Of a stretch of DNA of 64,000 nucleotides, positions 1,463 through 10,192 are shown in pieces. Each line of letters starts with the position of its first letter. Position 1 is the stretch's first letter. The stretch comes from Cardiobacteriaceae bacterium (GTDB lineage: Bacteria > Pseudomonadota > Gammaproteobacteria > Cardiobacteriales > Cardiobacteriaceae), in the NCBI GenBank assembly GCA_030529365.1, contig JAUMXB010000012.1, positions 1 through 64,000 on the forward strand, written 5' to 3'. The position numbers and the translations under genes are program-made. The notes beneath the pieces are model-generated. The model was not told the origin of the DNA. It saw nothing but the letters and a program-made list of their open reading frames with translations, and made no database searches.

Positions 1463-1571
1463 CGTAGGTCGGGCATTGATGCCCGACATGTGTTTGATGT
1501 CGGACACAAAGTGGCCGACCTACGGTTGCGACGATGTGTTTTTACGGACGTTGCAGGCAACGTCCCTACGA
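1463..1571. repeat. Family 2 intergenic repeat (GTAGGTCGGGC type), copy a
   Basis: CGTAGGTCGGGCA at the left is answered by GGCCGACCTACG at 1513-1524, with an inner GGGCATTGATGCCC hairpin. A second small module, GGACGTTGCAGGCAACGTCC, follows at about 1547-1566. The same two modules occur near 21.2 kb, and the second alone near 22.4 kb. Confidence 0.75.
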
Positions 1572-1604
1572 TGGCAGGCTAAAGCCCACCTTGCGGAAAC
1601 GGCA

Positions 1605-2984
1605 TTATTTTTTCTCTTTTTTGCTGGGACGCTGCCAGTTGTCGATATTGACCTGCCGCGCGCGGGCGATACCGAGCTGGTTTTCTTCCACGGTTTTGCC
1701 GATCACGGAGCCTGCGCCGATGGTCGCGCCTTGTTTTACGATGACCGGCGCAACCAGTGCGGTATTGGAGCCAACGAAGACGTCATCTTCGATGGTGGTC
1801 TGGAATTTGTTGGCGCCGTCGTAATTGCAGGTAATCGTGCCCGCGCCGATATTGACGTTCGCACCAAGCACGGCGTCGCCAACATAGCTCAAGTGATTGA
1901 CTTTGCTGCCCTCGCCGATGAAAGCGGCCTTGGTCTCCACAAAGTTGCCGATTTTTGCACCTGCTGCCAGCCGCGTGTGCGGTCGCAAGCGGGCAAAGGG
2001 GCCGACTTGCACCTGGTCGCCGAGCATCGCGTTTTCCAGCACGCAATGGCTGCGAATGTGCACGTCATTGCCAATCACGCTGTTCTCAATGCGGCAGCCG
2101 GCTTCGATAAACACGCGATCGCCGATTTCCACATCGCCAATCAGCATCACATTCGGCTCGATGACCACATCACGCCCGACGCTCACCCGCCCCTGCACAT
2201 CAATCCGCAACGGGTCGATGAGGGTAACACCCTGTTCAAGCAAGGTTTGCGCCTGACGGAAGCGGATCACGCTTTCCGCTTCGGCGAGTTGCACGCGGTT
2301 GTTGATGCCGAGCGTCTCGGTGAAGTCTTCGGTGAGCACGGTATCGAGCGGCAAGCCGTCCGCCGCCATCAGCCCGACCAGATCAGTCAGATAATATTCC
2401 TGCTGCACGTTGTGGTTATCGAGGCGCGGCAGGTAATCGAGCAGACGCTGGCTATCGACAGCCATGAGGCCGGTATTGATCTCGGTAATCAGCTTCTGCC
2501 GGGCGTCGGCGTCTTTTTCTTCCACAATGCCGATCATGCAATCATCTTCGTCGCGCAAAATACGGCCATAACCTTGCGGCTGCTCGGTAATCGCCGTGAG
2601 CAGGGCAAAGCCGCTGCGCTTCGCCGCGCGGCACAGCGCTTCCATGGTATCGAGTTGCACCAGCGGCGCGTCGCCCGGCACGATCAGCGTGATGTCGCTT
2701 TCGCCAATCAGGTGCACGGCCTGACGCACCGCATGGCCGGTGCCGAGCTGTTCGCGTTGCTCCACCCAGCGCAAGCCGTCGTAATGGGCATTGACCATTT
2801 CCTGCAACAGGTCGCCGCCGAAACCGTAAACCAGCGCCGGCTGCGCCTGCGGCAATGCCAGCACTGTATCCAGCAAATGAAAAATCATCGGCCGGCCGCC
2901 CAGCGGCTGAAGCACCTTGGGATAATGGGACTGCATTCGCGTACCCTTGCCGGCAGCAAGGATGAGAACCAGAACAGAGGACAT
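1605..2984 (-). CDS. glmU: Bifunctional UDP-N-acetylglucosamine pyrophosphorylase/glucosamine-1-phosphate N-acetyltransferase
   Basis: About 459 residues, typical for GlmU. The N-terminal nucleotidyltransferase begins with LAAGKGTRM (residues 9-17) and continues with PKVLQPLGGRPM. The second half is a left-handed beta helix of hexapeptide repeats (for example VSVGRDVVIEPNVMLIGDVE), carrying the acetyltransferase with the NFVETK and NYDGANK motifs. It makes UDP-GlcNAc for peptidoglycan and lipopolysaccharide. The ATG at 2984 has GGAG 5 nt upstream and was preferred over an in-frame start 6 codons earlier. The common partner glmS is not next to it; the gene upstream on the same strand encodes the SMI1-SUFU protein. 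Confidence 0.96.
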   Translation of the reverse strand: MSSVLVLILAAGKGTRMQSHYPKVLQPLGGRPMIFHLLDTVLALPQAQPALVYGFGGDLLQEMVNAHYDGLRWVEQREQLGTGHAVRQAVHLIGESDITLIVPGDAPLVQLDTMEALCRAAKRSGFALLTAITEQPQGYGRILRDEDDCMIGIVEEKDADARQKLITEINTGLMAVDSQRLLDYLPRLDNHNVQQEYYLTDLVGLMAADGLPLDTVLTEDFTETLGINNRVQLAEAESVIRFRQAQTLLEQGVTLIDPLRIDVQGRVSVGRDVVIEPNVMLIGDVEIGDRVFIEAGCRIENSVIGNDVHIRSHCVLENAMLGDQVQVGPFARLRPHTRLAAGAKIGNFVETKAAFIGEGSKVNHLSYVGDAVLGANVNIGAGTITCNYDGANKFQTTIEDDVFVGSNTALVAPVIVKQGATIGAGSVIGKTVEENQLGIARARQVNIDNWQRPSKKEKK

Positions 2985-3092
2985 GGAAACTCCGTAATTC
3001 ATAAAACTTCAAAAAAATCGCGCGCATGGATCGGGCAAAGCGCTCCCGCACGGGAAAAGGCATTGTACAGGTATGGCAGGAGCGCGCAGCAT

Positions 3093-4355
3093 TCAGGATT
3101 TCGTCTTGGGCACCATGCATGGCCGGTGAATATCGACGACTTCGTTGATGATGTCAGTATCAAAATAGCCAAGCAGTTCGTTGATGCCATGTTCGAGCTT
3201 GTAGGCCATTTCTTCCGCATAGAGCGGAATCAGGCAATAGAAGCGCACGATTTCGCCATCCACTGTCTTCAAGGTATAGGCTTCTTCCGGCTGCGACAGG
3301 AGCGGCGGCAGCAGCATGAAGCCGGAAAAAGGTGTGTTGGCGATGCGCTCCGGCGGATCGCCGTTGGGAATGGTATGGCCTTCGGCAAGCCAGGTTTCAT
3401 ATTCATGCGGCAGGCGGGCGAGGATTTTCAGCCAGCGCAATGGCCAATAGTTGTCTTCGTTGTCAAAATCTTCCTGGTTGATCGGCCAGTCCTTCGGCAG
3501 ATAGATGAGAAGTTCGGCGCGGGAATAGCGGTGGCTGCCCTCAAAGGCGGGAACGCTCATGGGCAGGTCGCTCATGCCGGTGGTGGCAAGCGTGAGCCAC
3601 GGGCGTTCCGGCGTGGCCGGGATCATGTGGATATCAATATGCACGAGATCGCTGACGATTTCGTGGTAAACGCCGCCGATGTCGCCGAAATAATGCTCGT
3701 AATGGCCTTCGATTTCCCGTCCGTATTCGCGGATGCTTTCCTGGAAACGGGTTTCGTCGTCGGCGTCATAACCTTCGCTGCCGTCGCCTGGTGTGAAGCT
3801 GTCGATGATGTCGTCGATCACGTCCTGAAAATCGCCGTTGAGCATACCGAGGTAGTCTTCCAGCCAACTGGAAAAATCCGGGCTTTCCGCTTCCAGCGTG
3901 TAGTCATAAATGTCGTCGCCGATAAAGGCGGTGATGACCTGGCCATCGCGGCCGATTTGCCCGGGCGCGAAATCGAGGCAGGTGATGTCGCCGCCATTGG
4001 TGAGGAAGGGCAGCCAGTCGCGATGGAAAAGCACATTGGCGATGACGCCGTCGTTGTCGCTTTCGCCAGGGGTGAGCGTGCGCCAGTTGTCGCCGTAATG
4101 GTTGCGCAGATACTCCTGCCAGTGGCGGTGCATGGCGAGCATTTCGGAAAGCGGCAGGAAGCGGTCTTCGCTTTCCTGGCCGTCGGAGCGGCGCTGGCCG
4201 TCGAAGCGGCGGTAAAGCGCCTTGAAACTGTCCGGCAGGGGATGGCCAAAGGCTTTTTCCAGCGCGGTAATGTCAGCTTCATCGGCAGGTGGGTTCAGGG
4301 TGTGGGTAAGGTCGTTATCGGAAAAAAACGCCAATAATTCGTCAATTGCCTGCAT
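3093..4355 (-). CDS. SMI1/KNR4 domain fused to a suppressor-of-fused (SUFU) domain
   Basis: About 420 residues, acidic. Residues roughly 1-130 look like an SMI1/KNR4 domain (ALEKAFGHPLPDSFKALYRRFDG; later FLPLSEMLA and DWLPFLTNGGD). After an acidic linker, residues roughly 230-410 match the SUFU fold: TLATTGMSDLPMSV, ELLIYLPKDWP, then FYCLIPLYAEEM. Both superfamilies are established immunity-type domains in bacterial polymorphic toxin systems, and SMI1/KNR4 also has broader housekeeping roles. No toxin gene is adjacent, so an orphan immunity or scaffold role is inference. The ATG at 4355 follows ACGGAAC with good spacing. There is no signal peptide or membrane segment, so it is probably cytoplasmic. 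Confidence 0.75.
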   Translation of the reverse strand: MQAIDELLAFFSDNDLTHTLNPPADEADITALEKAFGHPLPDSFKALYRRFDGQRRSDGQESEDRFLPLSEMLAMHRHWQEYLRNHYGDNWRTLTPGESDNDGVIANVLFHRDWLPFLTNGGDITCLDFAPGQIGRDGQVITAFIGDDIYDYTLEAESPDFSSWLEDYLGMLNGDFQDVIDDIIDSFTPGDGSEGYDADDETRFQESIREYGREIEGHYEHYFGDIGGVYHEIVSDLVHIDIHMIPATPERPWLTLATTGMSDLPMSVPAFEGSHRYSRAELLIYLPKDWPINQEDFDNEDNYWPLRWLKILARLPHEYETWLAEGHTIPNGDPPERIANTPFSGFMLLPPLLSQPEEAYTLKTVDGEIVRFYCLIPLYAEEMAYKLEHGINELLGYFDTDIINEVVDIHRPCMVPKTKS

Positions 4356-4464
4356 GTGGGTTCCGTCAGTGGTTTGGGTGCGCATCATAACATCTTATAT
4401 ATGGAATCTTTTTTTCATCACGGAAAGCAGGGGGCTTCACGATGAGAATCTCTTTGTTTTCAAG

Positions 4465-4676: not shown

Positions 4677-5117
4677 ATGCTAAAAACTTTTGTTACTCCC
4701 GATCATGTCGATGTTGTCGAAAGTGTGGCCGACTGGCAGGAAGCGGTGCGCCTTTGCGCACGTCCCCTGCTCGATGGCGGCTTTATAGAAGACCGCTATG
4801 TGCAGAAAATTTTCGACGAATATGAAAACACCGGTCCCTACTTCGTGGTCGCACCCGGCATTGCCATGCCGCACGCCCGGCCGGAAGACGGGGTGCACAA
4901 GCGGGGGCTGTCGCTGCTGGTGGTGCGCAAGGGCGTGAGCTTTGGCTGCGACAACGATCCGGTGCGCATCGTGGCGATGCTGTGCGCCACAGACAGGGAA
5001 TCGCATGTGAAAACTCTTTCTTCGCTGGCGGAAATGCTTGGCGATGCGGAGACTGTCGTGGCATTATCACAGGCGACGCATGCGTCGGAAGTTTTCGATT
5101 TGATTCGGAGTTTTTAA
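4677..5117 (+). CDS. ulaC: Ascorbate-type PTS system, EIIA component
   Basis: 146 residues, one PTS EIIA type-2 (fructose/mannitol-like) domain. The phosphorylated histidine is His66 in GIAMPHARPEDG. It takes phosphate from HPr and passes it to the EIIB encoded next. TTGAGG precedes the ATG. It is the first gene of a tight three-gene operon in the order IIA-IIB-IIC, unlike the IIC-IIB-IIA order of the E. coli ula operon. Assignment to the ascorbate family rests mainly on the IIC partner. Confidence 0.88.
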   Translation: MLKTFVTPDHVDVVESVADWQEAVRLCARPLLDGGFIEDRYVQKIFDEYENTGPYFVVAPGIAMPHARPEDGVHKRGLSLLVVRKGVSFGCDNDPVRIVAMLCATDRESHVKTLSSLAEMLGDAETVVALSQATHASEVFDLIRSF

Positions 5118-5135
5118 TCCAGCAAGGAGACAGGC

Positions 5136-5417
5136 ATGAAGATCCTCGCAGTCTGTGCACATGGCTTGGGCAGCAGCTTTCTGATGGAGATGAATATCAA
5201 GAAGGCGCTGGCCAAGCTGGGAGTGGAAGCGGAAGTCGGCCATTCCGACTTGTCCGTCACCGGTGGTGACGATGCTGACTTGTTCGTGATGGGGGCGGAT
5301 ATCGCCGCGAGTTCCCCGTTACCGCGCGACAAGATCATCATCATGAAAAATCTTGTGAGCGCTGCCGAGTATGATGAAAAGCTCGGTGAATATTTTGCCG
5401 GACGTGGAGGTGCGTGA
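5136..5417 (+). CDS. ulaB: Ascorbate-type PTS system, EIIB component
   Basis: 93 residues, a lactose/ascorbate-type IIB domain with the phosphocysteine Cys7 in ILAVCAHGLGSSF. It accepts phosphate from His66 of EIIA and passes it to the sugar during transport. It lies 18 nt after the EIIA gene with AAGGAG before the ATG, and its stop codon overlaps the IIC start as TGATG. The size is normal for a stand-alone IIB. Confidence 0.88.
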   Translation: MKILAVCAHGLGSSFLMEMNIKKALAKLGVEAEVGHSDLSVTGGDDADLFVMGADIAASSPLPRDKIIIMKNLVSAAEYDEKLGEYFAGRGGA

Positions 5418-6769
5418 TGAACGGATTGCTGCAATTTGTCTTCGATATTCTCAAGGTGCCCGCGATTCTCGTGGGCGTGGTGGCGCTGGTTGGCCTGATT
5501 GCCCAGAAAAAGTCGCTGCCCGATACCATCCGCGGCACGATCAAGACCATTCTCGGCTTTATCGTGCTCGGCGGCGGCGCGGGCGTGCTGGTGGGCTCGC
5601 TCAATCCGCTCGGCGCCATGTTCCAGGAAGCCTTCCAGGTGCAGGGCATCATTCCCAACAATGAAGCCATCGTCTCTATCGCCCTCAAGGAATACGGCAC
5701 GGCCACCGCGCTCATCATGGCATTCGGCATGGTCGCCAATATCCTGATTGCGCGCTTCACCCGCCTGAAATACATCTTCCTCACCGGCCATCACACCTTC
5801 TACATGGCGTGCATGATCGGCGTGATCCTGACCGTGGCCGGCTTCAAGGGCTTTATGCTCGTGCTCGTCGGTTCGCTGTGGCTGGGGCTGGTCATGGCCT
5901 TTTTCCCGGCCATCATCCAGCCTTACATGCGCCGCGTGACCGGCAGCGATGATGTCGGTTTCGGGCATTTCGGCACGGTGGGATACGTGCTTTCCGGCGC
6001 CATCGGCCAGGCCGTCGGCAAAGGCTCGAAATCCACGGAAGAGCTCAATCTGCCCAGCAATTTGAGTTTTCTGCGCGACAGCTCCGTCTCCATCTCGCTC
6101 ACCATGATGGTGATCTACCTCGTGCTCGCCATCGCCGCCGGCCCGACCTACGTGCAGGGGCAACTCAGCGACGGGCAGAACTATCTCGTCTATGCCATCA
6201 TCCAGGCCATCACCTTCGCCGCCGGTGTCTTCATCATCCTGCAGGGCGTGCGCCTGATTCTCGCGGAAATCGTCCCCGCCTTTACCGGCTTTTCCGAGCG
6301 CCTGGTGCCGGATGCCAAGCCGGCGCTGGATTGCCCCATCGTCTTCCCCTACGCGCCGAACGCCGTGCTCATCGGCTTCCTTGCCAGCTTTATGGGCGGA
6401 CTGGTCGGGCTGGCGCTGCTTGGCATGCTGAAATGGGTGCTGATCCTGCCCGGCGTCGTGCCGCATTTCTTCTGCGGCGCGACCGCGGGCGTTTTCGGCA
6501 ATGCCACTGGCGGACGGCGTGGCGCCATCCTCGGCGCCTTTGCCCACGGCCTGCTGATTACCTTCCTGCCCGTCTTTTTGCTGCCGGTGCTCGGTAATCT
6601 CGGCTTCACCAACACCACCTTCTCCGACGCGGATTTCGGCGTGGTCGGCATCCTCATCGGCAAGCTGGCTGGCAGCGGCTCGCAAACCCTGATCACGGCC
6701 ACTATCGTCGTCATCCTCGCCGCACTGGTGGCTTACAACTACCTCGTGCCGAAAAAGAAAGCCGCCTGA
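5417..6769 (+). CDS. ulaA: Ascorbate-type PTS system, EIIC permease
   Basis: About 450 residues, a multi-spanning permease of the UlaA/SgaT family. It begins MNGLLQFVFDILKVPAILVG and contains the conserved GGGAGVLVGSLNPLG and VFPYAPNAVLIGF stretches. It translocates and phosphorylates its substrate together with EIIA and EIIB. The ATG at 5417, which overlaps the EIIB stop, was preferred to a GTG at 5414 because GGAGG then sits 6 nt away. No ascorbate-6-phosphate catabolic gene follows; the next gene is recC. The pathway must lie elsewhere or the substrate may differ. Confidence 0.9.
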   Translation: MNGLLQFVFDILKVPAILVGVVALVGLIAQKKSLPDTIRGTIKTILGFIVLGGGAGVLVGSLNPLGAMFQEAFQVQGIIPNNEAIVSIALKEYGTATALIMAFGMVANILIARFTRLKYIFLTGHHTFYMACMIGVILTVAGFKGFMLVLVGSLWLGLVMAFFPAIIQPYMRRVTGSDDVGFGHFGTVGYVLSGAIGQAVGKGSKSTEELNLPSNLSFLRDSSVSISLTMMVIYLVLAIAAGPTYVQGQLSDGQNYLVYAIIQAITFAAGVFIILQGVRLILAEIVPAFTGFSERLVPDAKPALDCPIVFPYAPNAVLIGFLASFMGGLVGLALLGMLKWVLILPGVVPHFFCGATAGVFGNATGGRRGAILGAFAHGLLITFLPVFLLPVLGNLGFTNTTFSDADFGVVGILIGKLAGSGSQTLITATIVVILAALVAYNYLVPKKKAA

Positions 6770-6839
6770 TGCGGCAAACAGCCTTTTTCTGCCGTGCATG
6801 GCAGGAAAAGGCATTCAAAAATACTGCAAAAATAGCATA

Positions 6840-6915
6840 TTTTTCCCATCAGCAAGCGCTTATCGTGGTAAATTTTCTCACGATAAGCGCTTTTCAATGA
6901 GAAAAAACAACTATC
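6840..6915. repeat. Composite palindromic element, copy 3 (two cores)
   Basis: Cores are at 6854-6861 and 6885-6892, 31 bp apart, with GGTAAATTTTCTCA between them and matching ATCG/CGAT linkers. The right arm GAGAAAAAACAACTATC ends only a few bases before the recC start codon. Confidence 0.9.
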
Positions 6916-6922
6916 CTTTTCC

Positions 6923-9900
6923 ATGCTGACCATCCACCAGTCTACCGATGCTGACGCGCTTTTCGAGGCCTTTGCCAGCGAACTTGCGCGCAGCCGCCGC
7001 AGCGTATTCGAACGCGCCACCGTCATCGTCCCTTCCATGACCGTGCGCGACTATCTCGACAACCGCCTCGCCGACCGCGATGGCATCTCCACCCTGCTCG
7101 ACGCCCGGTTTTTCGGCATGTTCGCCTGGGCGCTGGTGGAAAAAGTCACGGCCGACCCCGTTTATCCCAGTATGCCACCCCTGAGTCGTGCCGCCATGCA
7201 GTGGCGCATGTTTGCCGGATTCAGCGCGCGCCTGCCGCTCGATAGCGCAAGCCCCGACGGCATCGACCGCTTCCTTGCCGGTCTGACCCGCAACCTCGCC
7301 GACCCCGACGCCATCCTCGCCCTGCTCTGGCAAACCGCCGGAGAATTTGCCCGCATCTTCGCGCGCTACCTGCACATGCGCCCCGACTGGCTGGCGCTGT
7401 GGAGCCGGGGGCAGGGCGGCAGCCTCGAAGCGCTTTTCTCTGCCGTCGAGCGCGACAGCCAGCGCGACTGGCCAGCATGGATGCGTGAGCATTACCAAAC
7501 CCTCGCCGCCGTGCAGCAGGCCGTGTGGCAACAGGATTTTGCCGACGCCTTTCTCGCCCGCGAAGCCCGCCTCGCCGCCTTCTGGGAAACACTGGCGCAA
7601 GGCCGCACCGCTGCGCTGCCGCCTACCCTTTTCGTGTACGGCCTGGAAACGCCGGAAGCCGACATGCTCGCCTTCCTCGAACGCCTCGCCCCCTATTGCG
7701 ATATCCACGTCTATCATCATGCCGTCAGCGACGGCTATTTCGGCGACATGGTGGACGACCGCTGGCTGAAGCGCCTGCAACTCGACCAGCCCGACCAGCA
7801 CTACGACCCCGTTCACCCGCTGCTCTCGCGTTACGGCAAGGAACAGCGCGACATCTTCCGCCTGTGGATTGCCGGCGAAGAACACGAACAGCGCCGCCTT
7901 GTTACTTTGCCAGCGGCCCATCCGCCGCCCGCCACGCTGCTCGCCACCCTGCAAGCAGAAATCCGCGAGCTGAACCCGTCCTTGCTCGCCGATTTTGCCG
8001 TGCAGGACGACGACGATTCCCTGCGCATCCACGCCTGCCACGGCCTCATGCGCCAGCTCGAAGCCCTGCGCGGCGAACTGGCGCGCTGGTTTGCCGCAGA
8101 CCCCGCGCGCCAGCCCGCCGACGTTCTTGTCGTCCTCCCCGAACTGGAAAACGCGGAAAACCTCCTGCGCACCGTCTTCCCGCCGAGCGGCGACTACGAC
8201 GGCCATATCCTCCCCGCGCGTCTCACCGGCATCACGCCCCCGGCCGCCCAGCAGCTCTGGCAAAGCCTCGCCGGCCTTTACACCCTGCCCGCCACCCGCT
8301 TTGAAGCCGACCGCGTGCTCAACTGGCTGCGCGACGAGCACACCGCCGCCATGCTCGGCATCGCCCCCGCCACCATGAACCACTTCTGCGAAGCGCTGCT
8401 CGCCGCCGGCTATCGTCGCGGCCTCGACGACGCGCACGACAGCAGCGCCGACCGCGACGCGCGCTTCACCTTCACCTACGCCCTCGACCGCCTGCTCGCA
8501 GGCCTTTGGCTTGGCGACATCCCGCTGCACCAACACACCGTCCCCCAGCCCGGCGCCGACGCCGCCACCCTTGATGCCGTCTGCGCACTCGTCCTGCACT
8601 GGCAACAGGCGCGCCGCGAGCAGACGCAAACCCGCCCGGTCCGTCATTGGCTTGCCCTGCTGCGCGAACAGCTCGCGAACCGTTTCGCCCATGCCGCGAA
8701 CACTCCGGCCCACCGCACCATCGAGCAAACCCTGCACGACCTTGACGGCCAGCTTGCAAGCCTGGAAGCGCACACGTCGCTGCCGCCGGTTACCCTCGCT
8801 TTCGTCCTGCAAGACATCGGCAAGCGCCTGTCCGCCGAACACACCGGCTCCGAGCCTTCCGGCGTCATGACCATCGGCAAAATTGGCGCCATGCGCACCC
8901 TGCCCTACAAACTCGTGGCCTTCGTCGGCGCCAACATCGCCGATTTCCCTGCCAACCCGCCCGATGACCGCCACGACCTCTCGCGCCTCGGCCACAAACG
9001 CCCCGGCGATATTCATCCCGAGCACCAGGATTTGGCCGCCTTTCTCGACATCCTGCGCCATGCCAAGGAAGCGCTGTGGATTTTTTACGACCGCTACGCC
9101 CCCGGCAGCCGCGACGAACAGCTGCCGGCCCAGCCCGTGCAGGCGCTTGTCAGCTATCTGGAAGAACACTGCCCGCAAGCGCGCATTCTCCGCGAACACG
9201 GCAGCGACCCCTTCCAGTACGATGCGCCGGGCAACCATCCGCCGCCGCTCTGGCAGCAAGTGCGGGAAAGCCTGGCCACCCCGCGCGAGGCGGCGCAGCC
9301 CTTTATCCCCCTGGCCGTCCCCGAAGCGGATCTTGCCGCGCCGCTCCCCGCAGGCGATACGCTGCATGTCAGCACCCTGCGCCACGCACTCCTGTACCCG
9401 GCGACCACCTTCATGCGCGCGCGCGAACTGGCCGTGCACAGCTCCCTCCAGCCCGATCCCGAGTTGGAACCGCTGCGCCTCGACAATCTCGAAAACTACC
9501 GGCTCGACCAAACCCTCATCGAGCATCCCGACGATCCGCGCCTGCCCCATCTGCCCCTGCTGCCCGCCGGAGCTGCCGGCCAAGCGCTGCACAGCGACAG
9601 CCATTCCCGCCTTGCCAGCCGCCGCGCCGCGCTGCTGGCCGCCAGCGGCGAACGCGAACTCACGCCCGTGCAGGAACAGCTCATCACCCTCGATAGCCTC
9701 ACCCTGGCCGCCATCCTGCCGCAACACCTCGCCACCCCGCGCCAGCTCATTCTCCATCCGGGCAAAGCCAATATCCGGCAGCGCCTTGGCCTGTGGTGGC
9801 AGCACCTCATCTGGCAAAGCGCTGGCGGCCGCGGCGAAACCTGGTGCGCCTTCGCCGACGGTATCCATGTCCTCGCGCCGGTTGCCGATGCCGAAAGCCT

Positions 9901-10192
9901 GCTGCGCGCCTGGCTCAACGTCTATCAGCACAGCCAGCAACAACTCTGGTTGCTGCCGCCTGCCATCGGCGAACACTGGCTCAACGGCGAACCGCCCGAC
10001 GACAACCAGCTGCAACCCATCCTGAACAAATGGCGTCATCCGCAGTACCCCGACGAAGACCTTGACGCTTTCCTGTTTCTTCTCCGCGGCCACGAAGACA
10101 GCGACGTCAACGCCTGCCTTCTGCACAGCGCACAACGCTACGCCCCGGCACTGTATGCCCCCATCGCCCAATACAGCACTCAAATAGAGTGA
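6923..10192 (+). CDS. recC: Exodeoxyribonuclease V gamma chain (RecC)
   Basis: 1089 residues, close to the usual RecC length of about 1,100. Family features include YLHMRPDWLALW near residue 155, the region starting KIGAMRTLPYKLVAFVG near 660, and FYDRYAPGSRDEQLPAQPV near 715. RecC holds the RecBCD complex together and recognises Chi in double-strand break repair. Unlike many relatives there is no recB or recD next to it, only repeats on each side. No clear ribosome binding site precedes the ATG. The TGA stop is part of the following repeat (GTGAGAAATTTT). Confidence 0.9.
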   Translation: MLTIHQSTDADALFEAFASELARSRRSVFERATVIVPSMTVRDYLDNRLADRDGISTLLDARFFGMFAWALVEKVTADPVYPSMPPLSRAAMQWRMFAGFSARLPLDSASPDGIDRFLAGLTRNLADPDAILALLWQTAGEFARIFARYLHMRPDWLALWSRGQGGSLEALFSAVERDSQRDWPAWMREHYQTLAAVQQAVWQQDFADAFLAREARLAAFWETLAQGRTAALPPTLFVYGLETPEADMLAFLERLAPYCDIHVYHHAVSDGYFGDMVDDRWLKRLQLDQPDQHYDPVHPLLSRYGKEQRDIFRLWIAGEEHEQRRLVTLPAAHPPPATLLATLQAEIRELNPSLLADFAVQDDDDSLRIHACHGLMRQLEALRGELARWFAADPARQPADVLVVLPELENAENLLRTVFPPSGDYDGHILPARLTGITPPAAQQLWQSLAGLYTLPATRFEADRVLNWLRDEHTAAMLGIAPATMNHFCEALLAAGYRRGLDDAHDSSADRDARFTFTYALDRLLAGLWLGDIPLHQHTVPQPGADAATLDAVCALVLHWQQARREQTQTRPVRHWLALLREQLANRFAHAANTPAHRTIEQTLHDLDGQLASLEAHTSLPPVTLAFVLQDIGKRLSAEHTGSEPSGVMTIGKIGAMRTLPYKLVAFVGANIADFPANPPDDRHDLSRLGHKRPGDIHPEHQDLAAFLDILRHAKEALWIFYDRYAPGSRDEQLPAQPVQALVSYLEEHCPQARILREHGSDPFQYDAPGNHPPPLWQQVRESLATPREAAQPFIPLAVPEADLAAPLPAGDTLHVSTLRHALLYPATTFMRARELAVHSSLQPDPELEPLRLDNLENYRLDQTLIEHPDDPRLPHLPLLPAGAAGQALHSDSHSRLASRRAALLAASGERELTPVQEQLITLDSLTLAAILPQHLATPRQLILHPGKANIRQRLGLWWQHLIWQSAGGRGETWCAFADGIHVLAPVADAESLLRAWLNVYQHSQQQLWLLPPAIGEHWLNGEPPDDNQLQPILNKWRHPQYPDEDLDAFLFLLRGHEDSDVNACLLHSAQRYAPALYAPIAQYSTQIE

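Follow-up and report, generated by a model that had tools for sequence, protein, structure and literature searches.

A toxin-less SUKH-SUFU fusion of Cardiobacteriaceae as a predicted polyimmunity protein

Introduction

No immunity superfamilies are broader than SUKH and SuFu, and fusions of the two, which usually have no toxin genes in their operon, have been called polyimmunity proteins (Zhang et al. 2012, PMC3482391). Here we describe such a fusion, the product of the SUKH-SUFU gene, in a 64,000-base stretch of DNA from a Cardiobacteriaceae bacterium. This stretch, hereafter the window, comprises bases 1-64000 of contig C6 of the host genome (2.30 Mb, 32 contigs, 96.6% complete). The protein shares with the published class the presence of several immunity domains in one chain, the joining of SUKH to SuFu and a toxin-free operon. 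It differs in that the window's gene stands alone, while two relatives have an adjacent second SUKH gene; on this point the survey gives a tendency and not a definition.

A second comparable system comes from gut Bacteroidales, where orphan dual-SUKH immunity proteins (I2) of the rAID type protect the cell, binding a WHH nuclease effector at nanomolar affinity, and where the orphan SUKH genes bear signs of positive selection (PMC12247911). The window's protein resembles them as a toxin-less, multi-domain SUKH orphan and would share their protection from non-kin, but a SUFU domain replaces the second SUKH domain and no recombinase with an orphan immunity array was found among the six neighbours scanned. 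SUKH and SuFu are also listed, in the 2012 survey, as immunity domains of contact-dependent inhibition (CDI; CdiA/CdiI) and MafB-type pairs.

The architecture is therefore already known, and by its domain content the window's protein appears to add one more case to the polyimmunity class. We propose that it is probably an orphan immunity protein of polyvalent action, which would bind nuclease toxins as they enter the cell. The name Cardiobacterium does not occur in the part of the survey's main text examined, and a Cardiobacterium-directed search of open-licence papers found none on such a protein among the papers listed.

Domain organization of the SUKH-SUFU protein

The gene and its parts are as follows.

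3093-4355, minus strand: SUKH-SUFU two-domain protein, predicted polyimmunity (open reading frame, ORF, of 420 aa; Pfam matches on both halves)
3858-4289, minus strand: SUKH-1 (SMI1/KNR4) domain, residues 23-166 (PF09346, E 3.8e-18)
3720-3815, minus strand: variable linker, residues 181-212 (37.5% identity with the copy from the same genus, 32 codons aligned)
3120-3644, minus strand: SUFU domain, residues 238-412 (PF05076, E 1.8e-48; GxS/E/E/DxxR signature)

A preliminary description of this DNA had assigned both halves to superfamilies used as immunity proteins, and the Pfam profiles bear this out. The SUKH half scored 66.7 bits against a curated cut-off of 25.4, which makes it a SUKH-1 member, and the C-terminal half, at 165.1 bits where the cut-off is 25, falls inside the Imm-SuFu family. 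A placement outside SUFU, which the preliminary description had named as the refuting result, did not occur. Both domains lie within a single open frame, so that one chain carries more than one immunity domain, as in a polyimmunity protein. The Imm-SuFu signature tabulated in PMC3482391 (GxS, E, E, DxxR) was located at G260xS262, E281, E382 and D408xxR411, the two glutamates being our own choice of position. In a 10-row family alignment, the G, both E, D and R positions were kept in 10/10 rows and S in 8/10. NCBIfam gave no match for the 420-aa protein up to E 10. An alternative in-frame ATG at 4388 would make the protein 11 aa longer; the ATG at 4355 aligns with the called starts of relatives in three family genomes (G002, G003 and G008), whereas the starts of some other rows in that alignment were set by hand.

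By sequence, the nearest solved structures are those of yeast Knr4/Smi1, which match the SUKH half (8aj2, the Knr4 core, E 7e-8) and not the SUFU half, a likeness confined to the domain. The ten-row family profile pointed, weakly, to the bacterial SUFU structure 3k5j (E 0.017), which shares the family but is a single domain of 183 residues. The SUKH half is also matched by the PADLOC candidate model PDC-M40A (E 1e-23), as were all four of the four family SUKH proteins scanned (E 1e-6 to 5e-35), so a part in an anti-phage defence system has to be considered. We regard this as very improbable: no PADLOC model was matched by any of the six window neighbours, PDC-M40 was not named in the papers listed, and the model may merely describe the SUKH domain.

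Selection on the two domains

To estimate selection, we compared one pair of genomes, that of the window and that of a same-genus relative (G007) with a copy ~82% identical and carrying the same two domains, using the Nei-Gojobori ratio of non-synonymous to synonymous substitutions (dN/dS). The ratio was 0.152 for the whole protein; the SUKH part (residues 1-180, 89% identity) gave 0.091 and the SUFU part (residues 213-420, 83% identity) 0.125, and both domains are thus under purifying selection in this pair. The 32-residue linker gave 1.37, with an uncertain alignment and an insertion in the same-genus copy. Because a second genome holds a two-domain copy at a dN/dS of 0.15, we take the gene to be real and selected. 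The kept domains and the free linker would fit two separately working binding modules. Among the neighbours, dN/dS was 0.048 for glmU, 0.10 for the aminotransferase gene (257 codons), 0.169 for EIIA and 0.229 for recC (687 codons). Across genera, identity was 24-30% for SUKH and 33-42% for SUFU against 50-57% for glmU in full-length matches outside the genus, which indicates that the SUKH-SUFU protein diverges faster than GlmU.

Distribution of joined and separate domains

We then turned to 12 Cardiobacteriaceae genomes (G000, the host, to G011), nine of which matched the protein at E <= 0.001. Joined SUKH-SUFU ORFs numbered 10, in 8 of the 12 genomes. Seven have one SUKH domain (G000, G007, G001, G003, G008, G009 and G010), and three, in G001, G002 and G003, have the order SUKH-SUKH-SUFU. 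SUKH also occurs apart from SUFU, as a SUKH-SUKH protein in G008, as single SUKH genes in G005 and G003 (the latter at E 1.8e-4), and as a separate gene adjoining the joined one in G009 and G010, the G010 gene being the one run through Pfam. This multiplication of modules favours the polyimmunity reading, as far as domain content can tell. The joined protein was not found in G004, G005, G006 and G011, and G004, G006 and G011 gave no match either to the window's protein or to PF05076. In the host genome, the SUKH-SUFU gene accounts for the one PF09346 match at E <= 0.001 and for one of two PF05076 matches; the other, which is weak, falls in an ORF of 286 aa on contig C12.

An order-level search matched 9 of 32 genomes, all of them Cardiobacteriaceae. 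Matches were obtained in 10 genomes from a draw of 369 Gammaproteobacteria and in 13 from a draw of 398 Pseudomonadota, and both halves lay in one ORF in the host genome only; the remaining matches had one half, or the halves in separate places (G189 and G303). These draws overlap, and apart from the host none of the Cardiobacteriaceae that carry a joined gene is among their matches; at most 4 candidates were scored per genome, so rare fusions could escape. Two relatives emerged from a scan of genome contigs: Cardiobacteriaceae bacterium S30M_Sa_23 has a copy at 81% identity, and Methanimicrococcus has a relative of the SUFU half alone. When viral contigs were scanned by profile, using patterns drawn solely from the SUFU half, there were 78 pattern matches and 0 confirmed relatives, the phage collection gave one record that covers the SUFU half only, and among plasmids 20 records matched, none spanning 80% of the query. 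None of these three scans gives a sign that phages or plasmids carry the joined gene.

The window's SUFU half is 40.5-47.3% identical to three plasmid copies (tblastn) as against 33-42% to other genera of the family. Because plasmid copies are at least as close by raw identity, we make no claim of orthology for the family copies as a whole. On a Pseudomonas luteola plasmid (L096:4332-6545), a solo SUFU gene lies tail-to-tail with an HNH_2 endonuclease gene.

Genomic neighbourhood

The genes that flank the SUKH-SUFU gene are these.

1605-3002, minus strand: glmU, context and not part of the system (Pfam hexapeptide and NTP-transferase); downstream of the SUKH-SUFU gene on the same strand
4677-6769, plus strand: EIIA, EIIB and EIIC-GAT genes of a sugar phosphotransferase system (PTS), context (Pfam); divergent from the SUKH-SUFU gene

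By Pfam, the glmU side also holds an aminotransferase class-V gene, and on the divergent side the three genes of the PTS, of galactitol type, are followed by RecC. No toxin or immunity family was recognised among these six scanned neighbours (GlmU, aminotransferase, three PTS proteins and RecC). The operon is therefore toxin-free over the genes scanned, a usual though not absolute feature of polyimmunity proteins, and the gene lacks the toxin gene directly upstream that a cognate CDI, Rhs or type VI secretion system (T6SS) immunity gene has. The orphan state reported in the preliminary description stands, as does its view that the two domains together might guard against more than one toxin, which agrees with the published class. 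What does not stand is the surprise at the missing toxin. An orphan state is to be expected, because toxin-less SUKH-SuFu fusions are the usual kind in the 2012 survey (PMC3482391).

In the relatives, we ran Pfam on six genes near family SUKH/SUFU genes, two SUKH genes and two genes of the P. luteola plasmid, together with three neighbours of the SUKH-SUFU gene in G007 and one of the G007 glmU. No toxin was found among the nearby genes of family SUKH/SUFU genes so covered, which are some of them only. The order of SUKH-SUFU gene then glmU, on the same strand, is common to the window and to G008, which is of another genus, and this suggests, without proving it, that the location is ancestral to both. 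The G007 gene retains EIIA followed by RecC on one flank; on the other flank its neighbours differ, and glmU lies on a different contig. Between the SUKH-SUFU gene and recC, G007 has EIIA only called (L025:2163-2603), whereas the window has EIIA, EIIB and EIIC (4677-6769). Overall, the joined genes occupy differing places across the family genomes, and from called protein starts we take their surroundings to be of a housekeeping kind (ribosomal protein operon, mutL, miaA, glmU, rimO and enolase). In G004, G005, G006 and G011, glmU follows what we take to be atpC. Orphan SUFU genes in housekeeping places extend beyond Cardiobacteriaceae, since in G303 (L098:9794-12465) a solo SUFU gene lies directly after what are presumably parA and parB.

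These surroundings bring up a domesticated housekeeping protein, an old immunity fusion that now binds a cellular protein and perhaps acts on envelope precursor supply via GlmU. Such a recruited role, which the preliminary description had also raised, draws a little backing from the glmU adjacency, which recurs in a single genome outside the genus, and from purifying selection in one pair, with a whole-protein dN/dS slightly below those of EIIA and the recC part. Moreover, the solved SUKH relatives found are those of yeast Knr4/Smi1, which the PDB entries name a cell wall assembly regulator, and in yeast this SUKH protein does act in cell-wall regulation. We nevertheless consider such a role unlikely. 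The G007 gene is not on the glmU contig and has other neighbours on that side; 4/12 family genomes have no joined protein, three of them (all but G005) matching neither the window's protein nor PF05076; the cross-genus identities of both domains fall below those of glmU; and the number of domains varies as in an immunity protein. A related view joins the two ideas. The gene could have settled in the chromosome of Cardiobacteriaceae, evolving slowly and standing next to glmU in two of the genera, with a product that serves as a domesticated, broad-range sponge for nuclease toxins in non-firing cells and is perhaps tied to envelope precursor supply, in contrast to a rapidly changing accessory immunity protein; we hold this to be a speculative and rather improbable extension.

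Toxin markers and candidate partner toxins

We also asked whether the host cell itself makes toxins of this kind. RHS repeats, the two-partner-secretion (TPS, CdiA-type) domain, PT-VENN and the T6SS protein VipB were all not found in the host genome, MafB itself not being searched for. Throughout, the statement that this genome has no such toxin refers to these four markers, other toxin types being outside its scope. In this, as in the absence of an adjacent toxin, the window's gene differs from CDI and MafB-type pairs. The sole ESPR protein of the host genome was rejected as a toxin, as it is a YadA-type trimeric adhesin. Over the 12 family genomes, RHS and VipB were found in 0, the TPS domain in 4 and PT-VENN in 2; over 14 control genomes, RHS was found in 2, VipB in 1, and the TPS domain and PT-VENN in 0. 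Since there were none in the controls, the TPS and PT-VENN searches are validated by matches in relatives only.

Several relatives carry CdiA-like nuclease toxins. CdiA-like proteins end in EndoU in G001 (E 1.1e-21) and in LHH in G005 (E 8.4e-15), and in G003 a PT-HINT/GH-E nuclease (E 1.4e-10) lies one ORF past a CdiA-like protein. The survey's tables pair SUKH immunity with LHH and EndoU, and SuFu immunity with GH-E and EndoU (PMC3482391). These nuclease toxins of relatives are hence plausible targets of the window's protein. The other tips scanned showed no toxin family, namely three in G001 (two matchless and one sub-threshold) and the CdiA-like protein of G003 (PT-VENN only); the scan left out one G001 ORF running off its stretch and a G002 protein. 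In G009, near a contig end (L126:1288-2496, C21), only 15 bases separate an Ntox50 toxin gene (E 4.1e-22) from a small SUFU gene (E 1.2e-13), which is likely a toxin-immunity locus within Cardiobacteriaceae.

The lack of a toxin near the SUKH-SUFU gene and the persistence of CDI-type toxin modules in relatives would also suit the remnant of a toxin-immunity pair, whose toxin gene was lost and whose immunity gene lingers against that one toxin. We think this a poor candidate as well. Two structurally unrelated immunity domains per chain, joined in 8/12 family genomes and both constrained, point to continuing use, and none of the six scanned neighbours belongs to a toxin family.

Two arrangements at the toxin loci are recorded here as side observations. 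In G003 (L047:3016-6064, C2), the GH-E nuclease gene beside the CdiA-like gene is followed by three similar tandem genes; ankyrin repeats were identified in one that was scanned, and the other two were judged by sequence likeness. In G001 (L043 and L044; C1:8000-34100), two CdiA-like genes, each >3200 aa, stand in a row, the first being the EndoU-ending one with CdiI_4 downstream, and after the EndoU-type gene comes an ORF of 1306 aa in which long stretches of that gene recur (by eye, unaligned).

A predicted shield against incoming nuclease toxins

How might a polyvalent immunity protein work in this cell? The SUKH and SUFU domains, on a free linker, would each act as a cytoplasmic binding module that covers an entering toxin domain. 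The toxins would most likely be contact-dependent ones whose nuclease tips are of the HNH/EndoVII fold, EndoU or a similar type, delivered by related or co-resident neighbouring bacteria. As the host makes no such toxin by the markers tested, the protein would serve as a pre-emptive defence. We infer the binding, the identity of the toxins and the separate targets of the two domains.

A number of points weigh against this proposal. The toxin partner of the SUKH-SUFU protein and its binding are both predictions; an AlphaFold2 model built from 3 sequences (the window, L002 and L003) had a mean pLDDT of 39.8, and no binding face was visible in it. Most of the candidate immunity genes that accompany toxins in the relatives belong to other families: CdiI_4 in the second ORF after the G001 EndoU toxin, ankyrin repeats by the G003 toxin, and by the G005 LHH toxin an ORF of 148 aa whose SUKH match is sub-threshold (E 0.013). 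Both in the window and in G008, glmU is a direct neighbour of the gene. A SUFU tree of 15 rows, which omits Methanimicrococcus and the second SUFU gene of Deinococcus, for which phmmer gave no match, did not resolve the deep relations among family members. The Bacteroidales work also cautions against a simple transfer. One of the two SUKH domains was sufficient in an orphan protein, and a distant single-SUKH relative, at 30% identity, gave no protection (PMC12247911). A SUKH domain alone is therefore no predictor of protection from a given toxin, and two domains do not equal two targets. Furthermore, the Bacteroidales orphan SUKH genes show a non-synonymous excess and diversifying selection, in contrast to the purifying selection in the one pair compared here.

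Taken together, the observation itself, an orphan gene that joins two immunity families, is confirmed, and the earlier interpretation as a whole is partly supported. Polyimmunity proteins were put forward as a prediction in 2012, and no bench test of a SUKH-SuFu fusion was found in the titles and abstract openings of the papers listed. A compact SUKH-SUFU protein in a genome free of the tested markers, with candidate toxins in its relatives, would be a clean case for asking if a single protein protects a 'non-shooter' against multiple nuclease toxins.

Other features of the host genome and the window

The second, weak SUFU protein of the host genome (286 aa, E 1.4e-7; L124:9550-10410, G000:C12, match at 172987-173337) has no recognised toxin beside it. 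We take its flanking genes to be a TRAP-transporter gene and a LacI-type regulator gene.

A promoter and terminator scan was uninformative, with 2 promoter-like sites against 1.8 expected and 0 terminators against 2.4 expected. A 953-aa plus-strand ORF (1476-4337) that runs over glmU and the SUKH-SUFU gene was dismissed as antisense, since similar long antisense ORFs lie over recC and the PTS genes. Besides this one, which lies opposite glmU and the SUKH-SUFU gene, they are found at 5114-6814 (566 aa), opposite the PTS genes, and at 6911-10183 (1090 aa), opposite recC. These very long antisense ORFs of the window are probably an effect of codon usage.
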